Of a DNA stretch of 21,620 bases, positions 11,683-16,420 are shown in pieces (position 1 is the first letter of the stretch; every line of letters starts with the position of its first letter). The DNA is from a virus, in IMG/VR virus record IMGVR_UViG_3300025816_000080, positions 1-21,620 of that record. One strand, given 5' to 3'. The notes beneath the pieces are model-generated. The model did no database searches. It was not told the DNA's origin and saw only the letters and a program-made list of their open reading frames with translations. The position numbers were made by a program, and so were the translations under genes.

Positions 11683-11813
11683 AAGCTTTATTAAGAATAT
11701 TTAGGTATTGCAGAATAAGAATAATTAAATTAAGTATTGAAAATAGACAACTTAAACTGCAAATAGAATATTTAAGGGCTACATTAAATAAAGATGAATA
11801 TACGAAGCATTAA
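11679..11813 (+). CDS. 44-residue basic helical peptide
   Basis: A 44-residue gene starting in ATGA overlap with the stop of the replication gene. Its end overlaps the start of the HExxH gene by 20 bases. The product (start MKALLRIFRYCRIRIIK) is basic in the first half and has a heptad-like IENRQLKLQIEYLRATL helix in the second. Overlaps at both ends and the lack of other coding in this gap support it. It has no recognised family; a small DNA- or partner-binding coiled coil is plausible. Confidence 0.45.
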   Translation: MKALLRIFRYCRIRIIKLSIENRQLKLQIEYLRATLNKDEYTKH

Positions 11814-12099
11814 ATATGGCAGAAAAAAGATTAAAATTAAATATGAAATATTAAAAAATTTATATGGATTTTATGAGCCTAATAAAAACTTGCTTGTATT
11901 TGATAAAAGGGTAAAAGGAATAAAGTTGTTTAATACGATAATGCACGAATTATTTCACATAATAATTAATCATTCAGGAATAGATGTAAATGGTAGAGGA
12001 GAAGAACCTATAGCACAAGCTATTGGAGATGGTTATGAAAAAGTATTTAAACAAAATCCTAATCTATGGAAATCACTAACTAAACTATTAAAAGGATAA
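11794..12099 (+). CDS. HExxH zinc metalloprotease-like protein
   Basis: A 101-residue protein with a zinc peptidase motif HELFH at 51-55 in the helix FNTIMHELFHIIINH. A downstream Glu-rich GRGEEPIAQAIGDG segment could supply the third ligand (Glu70 or 71). The first 40 residues form a YxPNKNLLVFD-type strand region. Size and order recall ImmA/IrrE-like or SprT-like minimal peptidases. ImmA proteins cleave phage repressors, so one possible target is the XRE protein at 9638; this is inference. A good ribosome site is not evident because the start lies in the preceding gene. The stop is one base before the ParB-like gene. Confidence 0.65.
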   Translation: MNIRSIKYGRKKIKIKYEILKNLYGFYEPNKNLLVFDKRVKGIKLFNTIMHELFHIIINHSGIDVNGRGEEPIAQAIGDGYEKVFKQNPNLWKSLTKLLKG

Positions 12100-12100
12100 T

Positions 12101-12592
12101 ATGGAAATAATAGAAATGGATATAAATGAGATTAAACCTTATAAGGATAATCCTAGAGAAATTTCACAAGAAGCAGTTAAAAAAGTTAAAAATTCTATAT
12201 CAGAATTTGGAAATAATCAACCTATCGTAGTAGATCAAAATAATGTTATTGTTGTAGGTCATACTAGATGGAAAGCATTAAAACAGCTTAATAAAACTAA
12301 AGCTTTTGTAATTAAAAAAGAATTTGATAAAAATAAGGCAGTTGCTTATAGAATTATGGACAATAGATCAGGTGCTGAATCTAAATGGGATAAACAATTA
12401 CTTATGTCCGAGTTGCAAGTTTTAAAAGATGATAAGTTTGATTTAGATTTAACAGGCTTTGATGCTTTAGAACTAAAAGACATTATGTTAGATAAAGATT
12501 TATTTGAACCTACAGATAAAGACGATCAAGGAAAGCTAGATCAAGACACTAAAGAAGTATGTCTAGAATGTGGCCAAGTTATTAATGGATAA
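12101..12592 (+). CDS. ParB/Srx-like domain protein
   Basis: A 163-residue protein with a ParB N-terminal fold: KPYKDNPRE at 12-20, KNSISEFGNNQPIVVD at 30-45, and the GHTRWKA box at 53-59. A helical segment with RIMDNRSGAESKWDKQLL follows, the region that in many phages leads into a fused DNA methylase. Here no methylase follows; instead the protein ends with VCLECGQVING, half of a possible zinc ribbon (Cys154, Cys157). Recent work assigns CTP binding or nuclease activity to some ParB-like folds; which holds here is unknown. The following Mom-like gene starts within its end, so the two are likely made together and may act on DNA modification. Confidence 0.78.
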   Translation: MEIIEMDINEIKPYKDNPREISQEAVKKVKNSISEFGNNQPIVVDQNNVIVVGHTRWKALKQLNKTKAFVIKKEFDKNKAVAYRIMDNRSGAESKWDKQLLMSELQVLKDDKFDLDLTGFDALELKDIMLDKDLFEPTDKDDQGKLDQDTKEVCLECGQVING

Positions 12593-13172
12593 AGGATTGT
12601 TTATTGATTATTGTAGTTATGAAGCTTCTAAATATGCAGTATTAAATTATCATTACTCTAAAGCCATGCCATCTGGAAAATTAGTTAGATTTGGAGTTTG
12701 GGAAGATAAAGAATTTATAGGTTCAGTTTTATTCGGCTCTGGGGCTAACCCTAATATGTCTAAAGTAGTTAATCTTACACCTTATGAAGTATGTGAGTTA
12801 GTTAGAGTTGCTTTAAATAAGCATAAAAACCCTGTATCTAAAATAGTTTCATTTTGTATGAAGAAATTAAAAAAAGATTTTCCTAATATAAAAGCAGTAG
12901 TAAGTTATGCTGACCCTATACAAAATCATAAAGGTAAAATATATCAGGCTATGAATTGGCTATATTTAGGCGAAACTAAAACTGCTACTCACTATATGCT
13001 AGATGGTAAATTTTATCATTCTAGATCACTAAATCAAAAAAATAGAGAAAATGAGACATTTGATAGAAGTGCTTATGAAAAAGTTTATTTAAAAAAGTAT
13101 AAATATATTTACTTATTTGATAAAGGATTAAAGAAACAATTAAATGAAACATTAAAACAATATATTGCGTAG
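12570..13172 (+). CDS. Mom-like DNA modification protein (GNAT-like fold)
   Basis: A 200-residue protein with the order of conserved blocks seen in Mom-type phage proteins: YHYSKAMPSG (27-36), FGVWEDKEFIGSVLFGSGA (41-59), ELVRVAL (76-82), PVSKIVSF (88-95), VVSYADP (110-116) and GKIYQAMNWLYLG (122-134). Mom of phage Mu changes adenine to N6-methylcarbamoyl-adenine, shielding phage DNA from restriction enzymes. The family is GNAT-like. Two starts are possible: ATG 12570, or ATG 12585, which overlaps the ParB stop by 8 bases; neither has a strong ribosome site. Product chemistry is inferred by family; the modified base in this phage is unknown. It is the last coding gene before the terminase block. 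Confidence 0.72.
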   Translation: MAKLLMDKGLFIDYCSYEASKYAVLNYHYSKAMPSGKLVRFGVWEDKEFIGSVLFGSGANPNMSKVVNLTPYEVCELVRVALNKHKNPVSKIVSFCMKKLKKDFPNIKAVVSYADPIQNHKGKIYQAMNWLYLGETKTATHYMLDGKFYHSRSLNQKNRENETFDRSAYEKVYLKKYKYIYLFDKGLKKQLNETLKQYIA

Positions 13173-13237
13173 GCTTTAGAAAGGCTAGGTGGTACCCCCA
13201 TTTAGATAGATGGTGCAATTCCAATCCCTACGCTCCA
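13167..13237 (+). other. tRNA-like structured element before small terminase
   Basis: GCGTAGG (13167-13173) pairs perfectly with CCTACGC (13227-13233), which is followed by T and CCA as in a tRNA 3' end. Inside is GGTGCAATTCC, close to a T-loop, and AGGTGGTA, close to a D-loop. A full cloverleaf cannot be made: the T stem needs a bulge (GATGG against CCAATC), no D stem is found, and the middle is about six bases short. It may be a decayed tRNA, a tRNA-like RNA, or a DNA site near the packaging genes. The 5' arm overlaps the stop of the Mom-like gene. Confidence 0.4.
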
Positions 13238-13275
13238 CACTTGAAATAAAGTTAAAAAAGGACATAATAAGGCAT

Positions 13276-13617
13276 ATGGCGAGACCAATGAAAAAAATAG
13301 ATGAAGAAGCAGTGAAGAAATTAGCACAATTACATTGCACTTTTGACGAGATTGCAGAATTTTGTGAGGTATCTACAAAGACTTTACAAAGGCATTATGT
13401 CCACCTTATAAAAAAGGGACGAGAGATGGGCAGAATAAGTTTAAGGAGAGCACAATTTGAGAAAGCTTTATCAGGTAATGTTGTTATGCAGATATGGTTA
13501 GGAAAGCAACATTTAGATCAAAGAGATAAGATAGAACAAACAAACTTTAATGAGCCTTTACCACTAATTATAAATGCTAAACCAGAAGAAATAGAAGATG
13601 TCAAAAAAAAAGGGTAA
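13276..13617 (+). CDS. Terminase small subunit-like protein
   Basis: A 113-residue protein starting MARPMKKID. I prefer this start (13276) to the in-frame ATG at 13210 because a TAAGG site lies just ahead and the extra 22 residues fall in the structured non-coding stretch. Residues 21-43 form a helix-turn-helix (TFDEIAEFCEVSTKTLQRHY). The RRAQFEKALSGNVVMQIWLGKQHLDQRDK block at 58-85 is what I know from small terminase subunits of many marine and proteobacterial phages. The protein selects phage DNA for packaging and stimulates the large subunit at 15182. Eight short genes stand between the two subunits. Confidence 0.75.
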   Translation: MARPMKKIDEEAVKKLAQLHCTFDEIAEFCEVSTKTLQRHYVHLIKKGREMGRISLRRAQFEKALSGNVVMQIWLGKQHLDQRDKIEQTNFNEPLPLIINAKPEEIEDVKKKG

Positions 13618-14995: not shown

Positions 14996-15213
14996 AATTT
15001 ATTTTGGTATTCTCTCTATGCTCTGCAATTACAGGATATTGCCAAAACCCCACAGTAGTACAAAAAGATTTTAATTCATGGACAGAATGTGTTAAGGGTG
15101 GTGCAGAGATTACTATAATAACTACAGAAAATTATTCAGAAAGATTTAACAAAGAAAAATTATATATATCTTACTTTTGTAATGAACATAACTCTAACAA
15201 AACCCCAGCATAA
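14992..15213 (+). CDS. Small exported Cys-containing protein
   Basis: A 73-residue protein with a likely signal peptide (MKFILVFSLCSAITG) followed by YCQNP and a NSWTECVKGGA segment, with a further Cys near the end (YFCNEH). After export to the periplasm, pairs of cysteines could form disulphide bonds. Related small SWxxC...FxC proteins occur in marine phages next to the terminase genes, to my memory, without known function. The end overlaps the large terminase gene by 32 bases; this helps place that gene's start. Confidence 0.6.
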   Translation: MKFILVFSLCSAITGYCQNPTVVQKDFNSWTECVKGGAEITIITTENYSERFNKEKLYISYFCNEHNSNKTPA

Positions 15214-16420
15214 AGTTTCATCAAGCAATAAAAGATTTAGAGTATTAGTATCAGGTCGTAGATTTGGTAAAACCTATTTATGTATTACTGAAATGATGAA
15301 GTATGCCACTCAAATAAACAAAAAAATCTGGTATGTAGCACCTACATTTAAAATGGCTAAAGAAATTGTGTGGTCAAACCTTAAAGATATGCTTTCTCAA
15401 TTTAATTGGATAGAAAACATTAATGAATCTAATATGACTATAACAATTAAAAAAACAGGCAGTAAAATATCATTAAAAGGTTGTGATGCTTATGATAGCT
15501 TGAGGGGAGTTGGATTAGACTTTTTAATATTAGACGAATTTGCTGACATTGAGGAAAAGGCTTGGACAGAGGTATTAAGAGCATCTGTATCTGATACTGA
15601 GGGAGATGTACTAATGTGTGGTTCGCCAAAGGGCTATGGTAATTGGTCTTATAGAATGTACCTTAAAGGGCAACAGGGCGACAAGGAGTGGGATTCATTT
15701 CAATTTACTACCTTGCAAGGTGGAATGGTATCAAAAGAAGAAATAGAGCAAGCTAAACAAGATATTGACATTAGAACTTTTAGACAAGAGTTTGAGGGTA
15801 CATTTGAGAACTATGCTGGAAGCGTTTATTATAACTTCCACCCTGTAGAAAGTGTAGTAGATAAACAAATAGATTGGACAAAGCCATTACATATTGGCAT
15901 GGACTTTAATGTGGATCCAATGAGTGCTTGTGTAGGACAAATAGAAAAAGATAAAATATATTTTTTAGATGAAGTAATAATTTATTCAAGCAATACTGAT
16001 GAAATGGTAGAAGAAATTAGAAATAGATATGGAACTAAAATACCTATTTTTATTTACCCAGACCCAGCTTCTAGACAAAGAAAAACTTCTGCTGGTGGTA
16101 GAACTGATTTAAGCATATTACAAAATGCTGGATTTAAAGTTAAATGTAAATTAAAGCACCCAGCTATCCGAGATAGGATAAATGCTGTTAATAGCAAACT
16201 AAAAGATTCTAATGGTAATAGGCATATTTTTGTTTCACAATCGTGTAAAACTATTGTAAAAGGATTGCAACGACAAATTTACAAGGAGAATACGAATATT
16301 CCTGATAAGGAAGATGGCTTTGATCACATGAATGACGCAATAGGCTACATGGTAGATTTTTTAAAACCTCTTACAACTCAGGCAGTATTTTCTAGACCAA
16401 CAAGATGGGCAATAAAATAG
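15182..16420 (+). CDS. terL: Terminase large subunit
   Basis: A 412-residue packaging motor. ATPase domain: Walker A SGRRFGKT at 24-31, Walker B FLILDE at 114-119, coupling motif CGSPKG at 146-151. The C-terminal RNase-H-like nuclease shows GMDFNVDP (Asp241), YPDPAS (Asp294) and DHMNDAIGY (Asp385), the three expected acidic residues. It cuts concatemeric phage DNA and pumps it into the prohead through the portal encoded next. The start at 15182 lacks an obvious ribosome site and is likely coupled to the overlapping upstream gene. The length is normal for the shorter terminases. Type of packaging (cos, pac) cannot be read here. Confidence 0.95.
   Translation: MNITLTKPQHKVSSSNKRFRVLVSGRRFGKTYLCITEMMKYATQINKKIWYVAPTFKMAKEIVWSNLKDMLSQFNWIENINESNMTITIKKTGSKISLKGCDAYDSLRGVGLDFLILDEFADIEEKAWTEVLRASVSDTEGDVLMCGSPKGYGNWSYRMYLKGQQGDKEWDSFQFTTLQGGMVSKEEIEQAKQDIDIRTFRQEFEGTFENYAGSVYYNFHPVESVVDKQIDWTKPLHIGMDFNVDPMSACVGQIEKDKIYFLDEVIIYSSNTDEMVEEIRNRYGTKIPIFIYPDPASRQRKTSAGGRTDLSILQNAGFKVKCKLKHPAIRDRINAVNSKLKDSNGNRHIFVSQSCKTIVKGLQRQIYKENTNIPDKEDGFDHMNDAIGYMVDFLKPLTTQAVFSRPTRWAIK

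Follow-up and report, generated by a model that had tools for sequence, protein, structure and literature searches.

The window, by which we mean the whole stretch of 21,620 bases that was analysed, is an IMG/VR record from an ocean phage of the HTVC112P-like pelagiphages, with Pelagibacter phage HTVC112P as its nearest isolate. The parB, mom and terminase genes described here lie on the + strand. A ParB-like protein of 163 amino acids (12101..12592) combines a ParB/Srx NTPase fold with a helical segment and a Mom-type tail. Its NTPase core (residues 1-93, 12101..12379) contains the GHTR box II with R56 and box III with D87-N88, the tail carries the motif F-x-P ... DQGKLD (residues 135-147, 12503..12541), which is conserved in Mom-linked ParBs, and near the end stands CLECG (12560..12574), a half zinc-ribbon-like CxxC (C154, C157) with putative zinc binding. 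The next gene (12585..13172) encodes a Mom homologue of 195 amino acids, assigned by Pfam PF25680, an AF2 model, PDB entry 8bv8 and a residue map; it starts with ATG at 12585, an alternative GTG at 12570 being possible, and stops at 13172. The parB stop and the mom start overlap by 8 nt (12585..12592, ATGGATAA), an arrangement that likely reflects translational coupling.

An earlier note made from the DNA had listed motifs in both proteins and an overlap of the parB 3' end with the following gene, and all of them are found as described: NPRE (17-20), GHTRW (53-57), DNRSGAESKW (87-96) and the CLECG end in the 163-residue ParB ORF, YHYSKAMP (22-29), LVRVAL (72-77), VSYADP (106-111) and IYQAMNW (119-125) in Mom, and the parB stop codon within the mom start (ATGGATAA). 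Directly 3' of mom lies a terminase small subunit-like gene (13210..13617; phrog_309, E = 5.9e-07), followed further downstream by the terminase large subunit (15182..16420; Pfam Terminase_6N, E = 5e-11; phrog_2, E = 7.6e-48) and a portal gene. Just upstream of parB ends a small HExxH (MHELFHII) metallopeptidase-like ORF (11794-12099), which is kept in the nearest relatives of the window and has gp16 as its positional counterpart in HTVC112P.

The second protein had been proposed to be a Mom-like enzyme, and sequence, fold and residues (PF25680, 8bv8, residue map) all bear this out. It matches Pfam PF25680 with E = 1.1e-48 (166 bits, gathering cut-off 27.1) and phrog_1384, 'Mom-like DNA modification protein', with E = 1.5e-51. 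When its AF2 model (pLDDT 93.2) was matched against PDB structures, the S124A form of phage Mu Mom, 8bv8, came first (E = 8.6e-14, TM 0.80), with ordinary GNATs ranking far behind, and a profile built from 54 relatives matched a single PDB chain, again 8bv8, 'methylcarbamoylase mom' (E = 4.4e-26). Mu residues H48, Y49, R101, S114, D139 and Y149 correspond to H23, Y24, R74, S85, D110 and Y120 of the window protein and all are kept; we take H48, Y49, R101, D139 and Y149 to be catalytic in Mu Mom, and S114 is S124 in the 241-residue numbering, the position changed in the inactive S124A mutant of 8bv8. The Mu catalytic-residue set is kept in nearly all of 132 non-redundant relatives, S85 being the least conserved catalytic position, with a frequency of 0.90 in the main group and a change to T in 5 of the 13 proteins that have no ParB. 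An ordinary acetyltransferase is ruled out by Pfam, profile, structure match and catalytic residues. The idea that H80 and H115 of Mom form a docking site for the tail found no support, as these residues mark a clade and not the link to ParB. Some loci hold two Mom genes (L102, 513-1768; L118, 509-1725; and L094), the copies being 53-55% identical in L102 and L118 and 30% in L094; because the HYS motif is missing from the first copy in L102 and from one of those in L094, one copy in such loci may be inactive or changed.

The ParB fold claimed for the first protein was likewise upheld. Pfam ParB_N (PF02195) matches above its cut-off (E = 2.6e-10; 40.6 bits against 26.3), phrog_620 'ParB-like' matches with E = 7e-47, and Foldseek places the ParB/Noc CTPases 7ng0, 7bm8 and 6sdk at the top for the AF2 model (pLDDT 90.8). 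Since the Pfam and phrog matches of both ParB and Mom are significant and both Pfam scores exceed their cut-offs, the pair is no chance observation. Residues 2-91 could be aligned with HMMER to Spo0J (6sdk) and Noc (7ng0), and both the box II arginine (R56) and the box III asparagine (N88) of the pocket are present; among relatives R56 is kept in 45 of 51 and N88 in 50 of 51 ParBs, with T in place of the arginine in six. Neither Pfam scan nor AF2 model reveals an HTH parS-binding or a C-terminal dimerisation domain in the 163-residue protein, which ends in a short tail, and its ORF carries no methylase domain, the enzyme being the separate Mom. Judged from these matches and the model, the window ParB is a predicted ParB-fold NTPase without the DNA-binding half. 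The annotation 'ParB-like nuclease/partition' is therefore probably misleading for these proteins, because they do not have a parS-binding domain.

We then asked how widespread the pairing is, using surveys that are best-80 similarity lists per scan and not random samples. In the first IMG/VR scan, every listed Mom relative with sufficient upstream DNA had a ParB directly upstream. In a wider Mom set from IMG/VR and GTDB genomes, restricted to loci with at least 600 nt upstream (92 non-redundant), ParB lies directly upstream in 81 of the 92 window-related Mom loci among the matches listed; CxxC is present in all 81 of these listed ParBs, the LD motif in 76, and 75 of the 81 listed pairs overlap or are separated by at most 20 nt, measured to the start of the Mom profile. 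The pair also occurs in the isolates phiEf11, Appa (a Microbacterium phage) and Salinibacter B2_17, and with one ORF in between in Arthrobacter Sonny. Window-type Moms found later in Bacillota genomes (L432-L434) fit the pairing, L433 and L434 resembling Paenibacillus loci already in the set. A Lactobacillus amylovorus plasmid (L428, NZ_CP090605.1 22403-25381) carries ParB, Mom, terminase and portal genes and is a phage-plasmid. The ORF after the pair is a small terminase subunit (phrog_309) in 26 of 95 cases and a large subunit (phrog_2) in 21 of 95, a frequency that fits modification before packaging.

ParB does not accompany every Mom: none was found near the distant Moms of 12 of 12 isolates examined (A511, ICP1, PM87 and others), nor near mom in phage Mu. 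Since Mu Mom works without ParB and these 12 isolates do not have it, ParB is not needed for Mom chemistry. In a Rhodobacteraceae MAG (L175), a Mom without ParB follows a Com-like protein with two CxxC pairs, as in Mu; upstream of the window mom no com zinc-finger gene was found, the gene there being ParB-like with one CxxC.

Scans anchored on ParB instead of Mom gave 226 loci among the matches listed and, once made non-redundant, 76 stand-alone ParBs and 76 long ORFs, again among the matches listed. Partner classes were assigned by clustering and by Pfam/PHROG scans of representatives; the ParBs as a whole were too diverse for one alignment to serve as a scan profile. The 64 stand-alone ParBs with a classed partner precede Mom (26), Tet_JBP (15), TAGT (8), C5-methylase (8), ABC-ATPase/GNAT (3), DpdA-like (2) and Methyltransf_23 (2) genes. 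Three of the eight TAGT genes sit behind a phosphatase/cytidylyltransferase gene that follows ParB; this gene was rejected as a separate partner class, as the TAGT gene comes directly after it and the tail is TAGT-type. Single stand-alone ParBs stand before PAPS reductase, glycosyltransferase group 1, radical SAM (below cut-off) and HNH genes. The long ORFs contain a methylase PPY motif in 71 of 76 cases, at a fixed place (median residue 190). HTVC112P itself has its ParB followed by gp18, a Tet_JBP protein (E = 1.1e-29), and an FkbM methylase.

The suggestion in the earlier note that ParB could be a general coupling module for DNA modification gains genomic backing from this gene neighbourhood, in its general form only: one core is found in front of genes for Mom, Tet_JBP, C5-methylase, TAGT, ABC-GNAT and DpdA-like proteins, and in other cases on one chain with an N6-methylase. 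Reportedly, Iyer et al. in 2013 (NAR, on DNA modification neighbourhoods) may already mention ParB beside TET/JBP genes. Some neighbours are of interest in their own right. An ABC-type ATPase follows ParBs with their own tail type in L247 (4504-5586), L323, L334 and Lactococcus P335 Orf23-24 (L070), has a GNAT domain fused to it in two of them (L247 and L334), and is a candidate for an unrecognised DNA-modification enzyme. The same core precedes DpdA/queuine-transglycosylase-like (phrog_887), PAPS-reductase and radical-SAM-like genes in L258, L293, L261 and L270, and in L316 (3937-5661) a ParB-methylase fusion overlaps a Mu-type Mom gene, possibly giving two modifications from one ParB operon.

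The comparison of tails and cores carries our main finding. When the ParBs were cut at residue 121, the nearest neighbour among the 64 non-redundant stand-alone proteins with a classed partner (among the matches listed) had the same enzyme class in 60 cases by tail and in 32 by core, with permuted labels reaching at most 26, and the tail was right in 28 of the 32 cases in which the core pointed to another class. Cores that are 81-90% identical carry different tails and enzymes of Mom, C5-methylase or TAGT type. The Mom tail follows the pattern F-x-P...DQGKLD...CPxCG. The C5-methylase tail lacks DQGKLD and closes with CPKCGFEFD, TET tails finish in NLTDTVY-like helices, and most TAGT tails contain SALVIIDY. 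A separate ParB tail, NENSNGNALAF, goes with the Mu-type Moms, so that two Mom subtypes have two tails; locus L313 holds a window-type Mom, yet neither Mom tail type. An independent-pairs sign test on the tree of the cores leaned in the expected direction, with 4.2 pairs for, 0 against and 2.8 without change (p = 0.125), which with few supported pairs is not significant alone. The Mom-linked tail motif extends across many phyla in which the Moms share only about 35-45% identity, and its conserved residues use varied synonymous codons, so the constraint on the tail acts on the protein. Taken together, these sequence comparisons identify the C-terminal tail, and not the core, as the partner-specific part of ParB, a point that is new here.

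Within the tail, the CLECG end is modelled by AF2 as a beta hairpin and would, from its sequence, be able to bind zinc. The CxxC knuckle as a Mom-specific element is ruled out, as C5-methylase ParBs also carry it. Nine other Moms, mostly Mu-type, have ParBs without CxxC. The Mom-type part of the tail is only the motif that precedes CxxC. This motif is also found without ParB. In six of seven actinobacterial Mom loci that have no ParB, a short ORF directly upstream of mom ends in DFxP...P(R/E)LDx(L/I) and then a basic stretch, one of the seven, L174, showing a variant of the motif. A search of 3.15 million residues of other ORFs gave 6 matches to the strict pattern, as many as there are sites. 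A 21-column tail HMM, with weak single E-values, ranked five of the six sites within the first eight out of 45,178 ORFs. In L166 and L169, two of the micro-ORFs, no ATG or GTG comes before the motif. Nothing else points as strongly to the motif belonging with Mom instead of the ParB core as this stand-alone occurrence upstream of ParB-less mom genes.

Comparison of related phages shows where the exchange takes place. By blastn, the window and HTVC112P are homologous up to 12513 (ParB residue 138), unrelated thereafter, and homologous again from 13259, just past mom; these limits define an exchanged cassette of ParB tail plus Mom (12514..13258), at whose site HTVC112P carries another tail with TET/JBP and FkbM genes. 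The pairs L242/L247 and L285/L374 show the same pattern, so that in three phage pairs DNA homology is lost at around ParB residues 120-138 and picks up again shortly behind the enzyme gene. On these alignments, related phages swap tail and enzyme as one cassette with a break inside parB. The genomic slot of the ParB-enzyme pair is open to change among pelagiphages. In HTVC111P (L425, 5853-6470) it holds a lone cytosine methylase, and in HTVC202P (L426) and HTVC026P (L427) no annotated modification gene was found in it.

We give an even chance to the reading that the locus is a two-subunit DNA-modification cassette, in which partner-specific tails dock the enzymes and the NTP-binding ParB core delivers or controls them. 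ParB would consist of the NTP-binding ParB/Srx core, a short helical segment and the Mom-specific tail, with F-x-P ... DQGKLD followed by the CxxC knuckle. The overlapping genes would ensure that ParB and Mom are made together, Mom would be docked physically by the ParB tail, and the CxxC halves of two ParB subunits may share one zinc ion. The core, loaded onto DNA in its NTP-bound form, would hold DNA and bring the enzyme to phage DNA, or gate its activity, shortly before packaging, and the adenine modified by Mom would make host restriction enzymes fail. Across phages the core would be a common adaptor, and recombination inside parB would swap tail plus enzyme and change the modification chemistry in one step. 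More tentatively, and as something that may well prove too broad, we propose that a single NTP-driven ParB core serves all these phages as the universal subunit for delivering DNA-modifying enzymes, with the tail as plug, that one crossover in the core switches the chemistry (Mom, TET, C5-methylase, glycosyltransferase, ATPase-GNAT), and that the actinobacterial Mom plug is a stand-alone micro-protein.

The correlation could instead result from linkage alone, the tail adjoining the enzyme gene and recombination in the core keeping both together, while the tail serves an unrelated role such as zinc-mediated ParB dimerisation and makes no contact with the enzyme. This is a real alternative, which we nevertheless consider unlikely. 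Tail and enzyme are indeed physically adjacent, the break points lie in the core, and the CxxC end is common to C5-methylase and Mom ParBs and thus not specific for Mom, but linkage leaves the stand-alone motif and the deep conservation unexplained: the motif is kept across many phyla though the Moms are only about 35-45% identical, six actinobacterial loci retain it although they have no ParB core, and it is at this same place that methylases are fused. It is distinctly unlikely, in our estimation, that ParB restrains or times a toxic modification enzyme as an NTP-sensing regulator instead of delivering it. Such a role has a precedent in DndB, a ParB-like, ATP-dependent regulator of DNA phosphorothioation (PMC12704722), and would suit the translational coupling of enzyme and ParB and a Mom chemistry that works without ParB in Mu, although the methylases fused to the same core would then bear their own inhibitor.

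Two further roles appear less probable. That ParB is a nicking nuclease, which degrades unmodified host or rival DNA beside the modification enzyme or helps packaging, seems very doubtful to us: the module adjoins the terminase, and a passage of PMC5512222 cites a Bacillus cereus ParB-methylase fusion as nicking DNA non-specifically, but the closest solved folds are ParB/Noc CTPases and a free nuclease would not be expected to have a partner-specific tail. Finally, ParB could replace Com as translational activator of mom, its zinc knuckle acting on mRNA, as its gene occupies the com position of Mu, Com, itself a zinc finger, opens the translation of mom (PMC6483171), and the CxxCG end of the tail resembles one half of Com; given that the same core precedes several other enzyme classes, that the tail is conserved at the protein level while its codons vary and that CxxC is absent from many tails, we regard this as highly improbable.

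To our knowledge, it is in large part an open question what guides the DNA-modifying enzymes of phages to phage DNA inside the cell. If true, a 'tail code' that can be read on a common ParB core would offer a single mechanism for many chemistries, a model for phages that switch modification in one recombination step, and a prediction of the modification class from the 40 residues of the tail; if the adaptor reading is true, it would also give a function to the common 'ParB-like nuclease/partition' annotation. Our comparisons suggest that the new element is the partner-specific, exchangeable tail on a shared core. The adjacency of parB and mom is itself not new, because a ParB-domain protein (210 amino acids) next to a Mom homologue (270 amino acids) was listed in 2011 in Dehalococcoides ssrA genomic islands (PMC3146451); that pair resembles ours in its two proteins and appears there only among the integration-module genes of host islands, with no analysis of tail or partner.

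With Mu com-mom, the window shares the Mom fold, all catalytic residues and a small upstream gene overlapping mom, whereas the upstream protein is Com, a CCCC zinc finger, in Mu and a ParB-fold protein with a one-knuckle tail here, and mom adjoins the terminase in the window but com-mom lies at the genome end in Mu. The ParB/Noc/KorB CTPases (6sdk, 7ng0, 8qa8) have the NTPase fold and the pocket residues in common with the window ParB, but their canonical members possess the HTH parS-binding and C-terminal dimerisation domains, both of which it does not have. DndB of the phosphorothioation system is, by its description, also a ParB-like NTP-binding partner of a DNA modification machine, and differs from our reading of the window ParB in acting as a repressor. 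A 2025 survey (PMC12704722), in which Mom is not mentioned, reports that ParB folds bind CTP, ATP or GTP, that ParB-fold fusions of phages and bacteria bind CTP or ATP, and that fusion to methylases is frequent in phages. These ParB-methyltransferase fusions (phrog_498, ParB_N_like_MT; PMC12704722) have the same ParB core as the window, fused to a DNA methylase, whereas the window enzyme is a separate GNAT-fold Mom that would be linked to the core through the tail motif.
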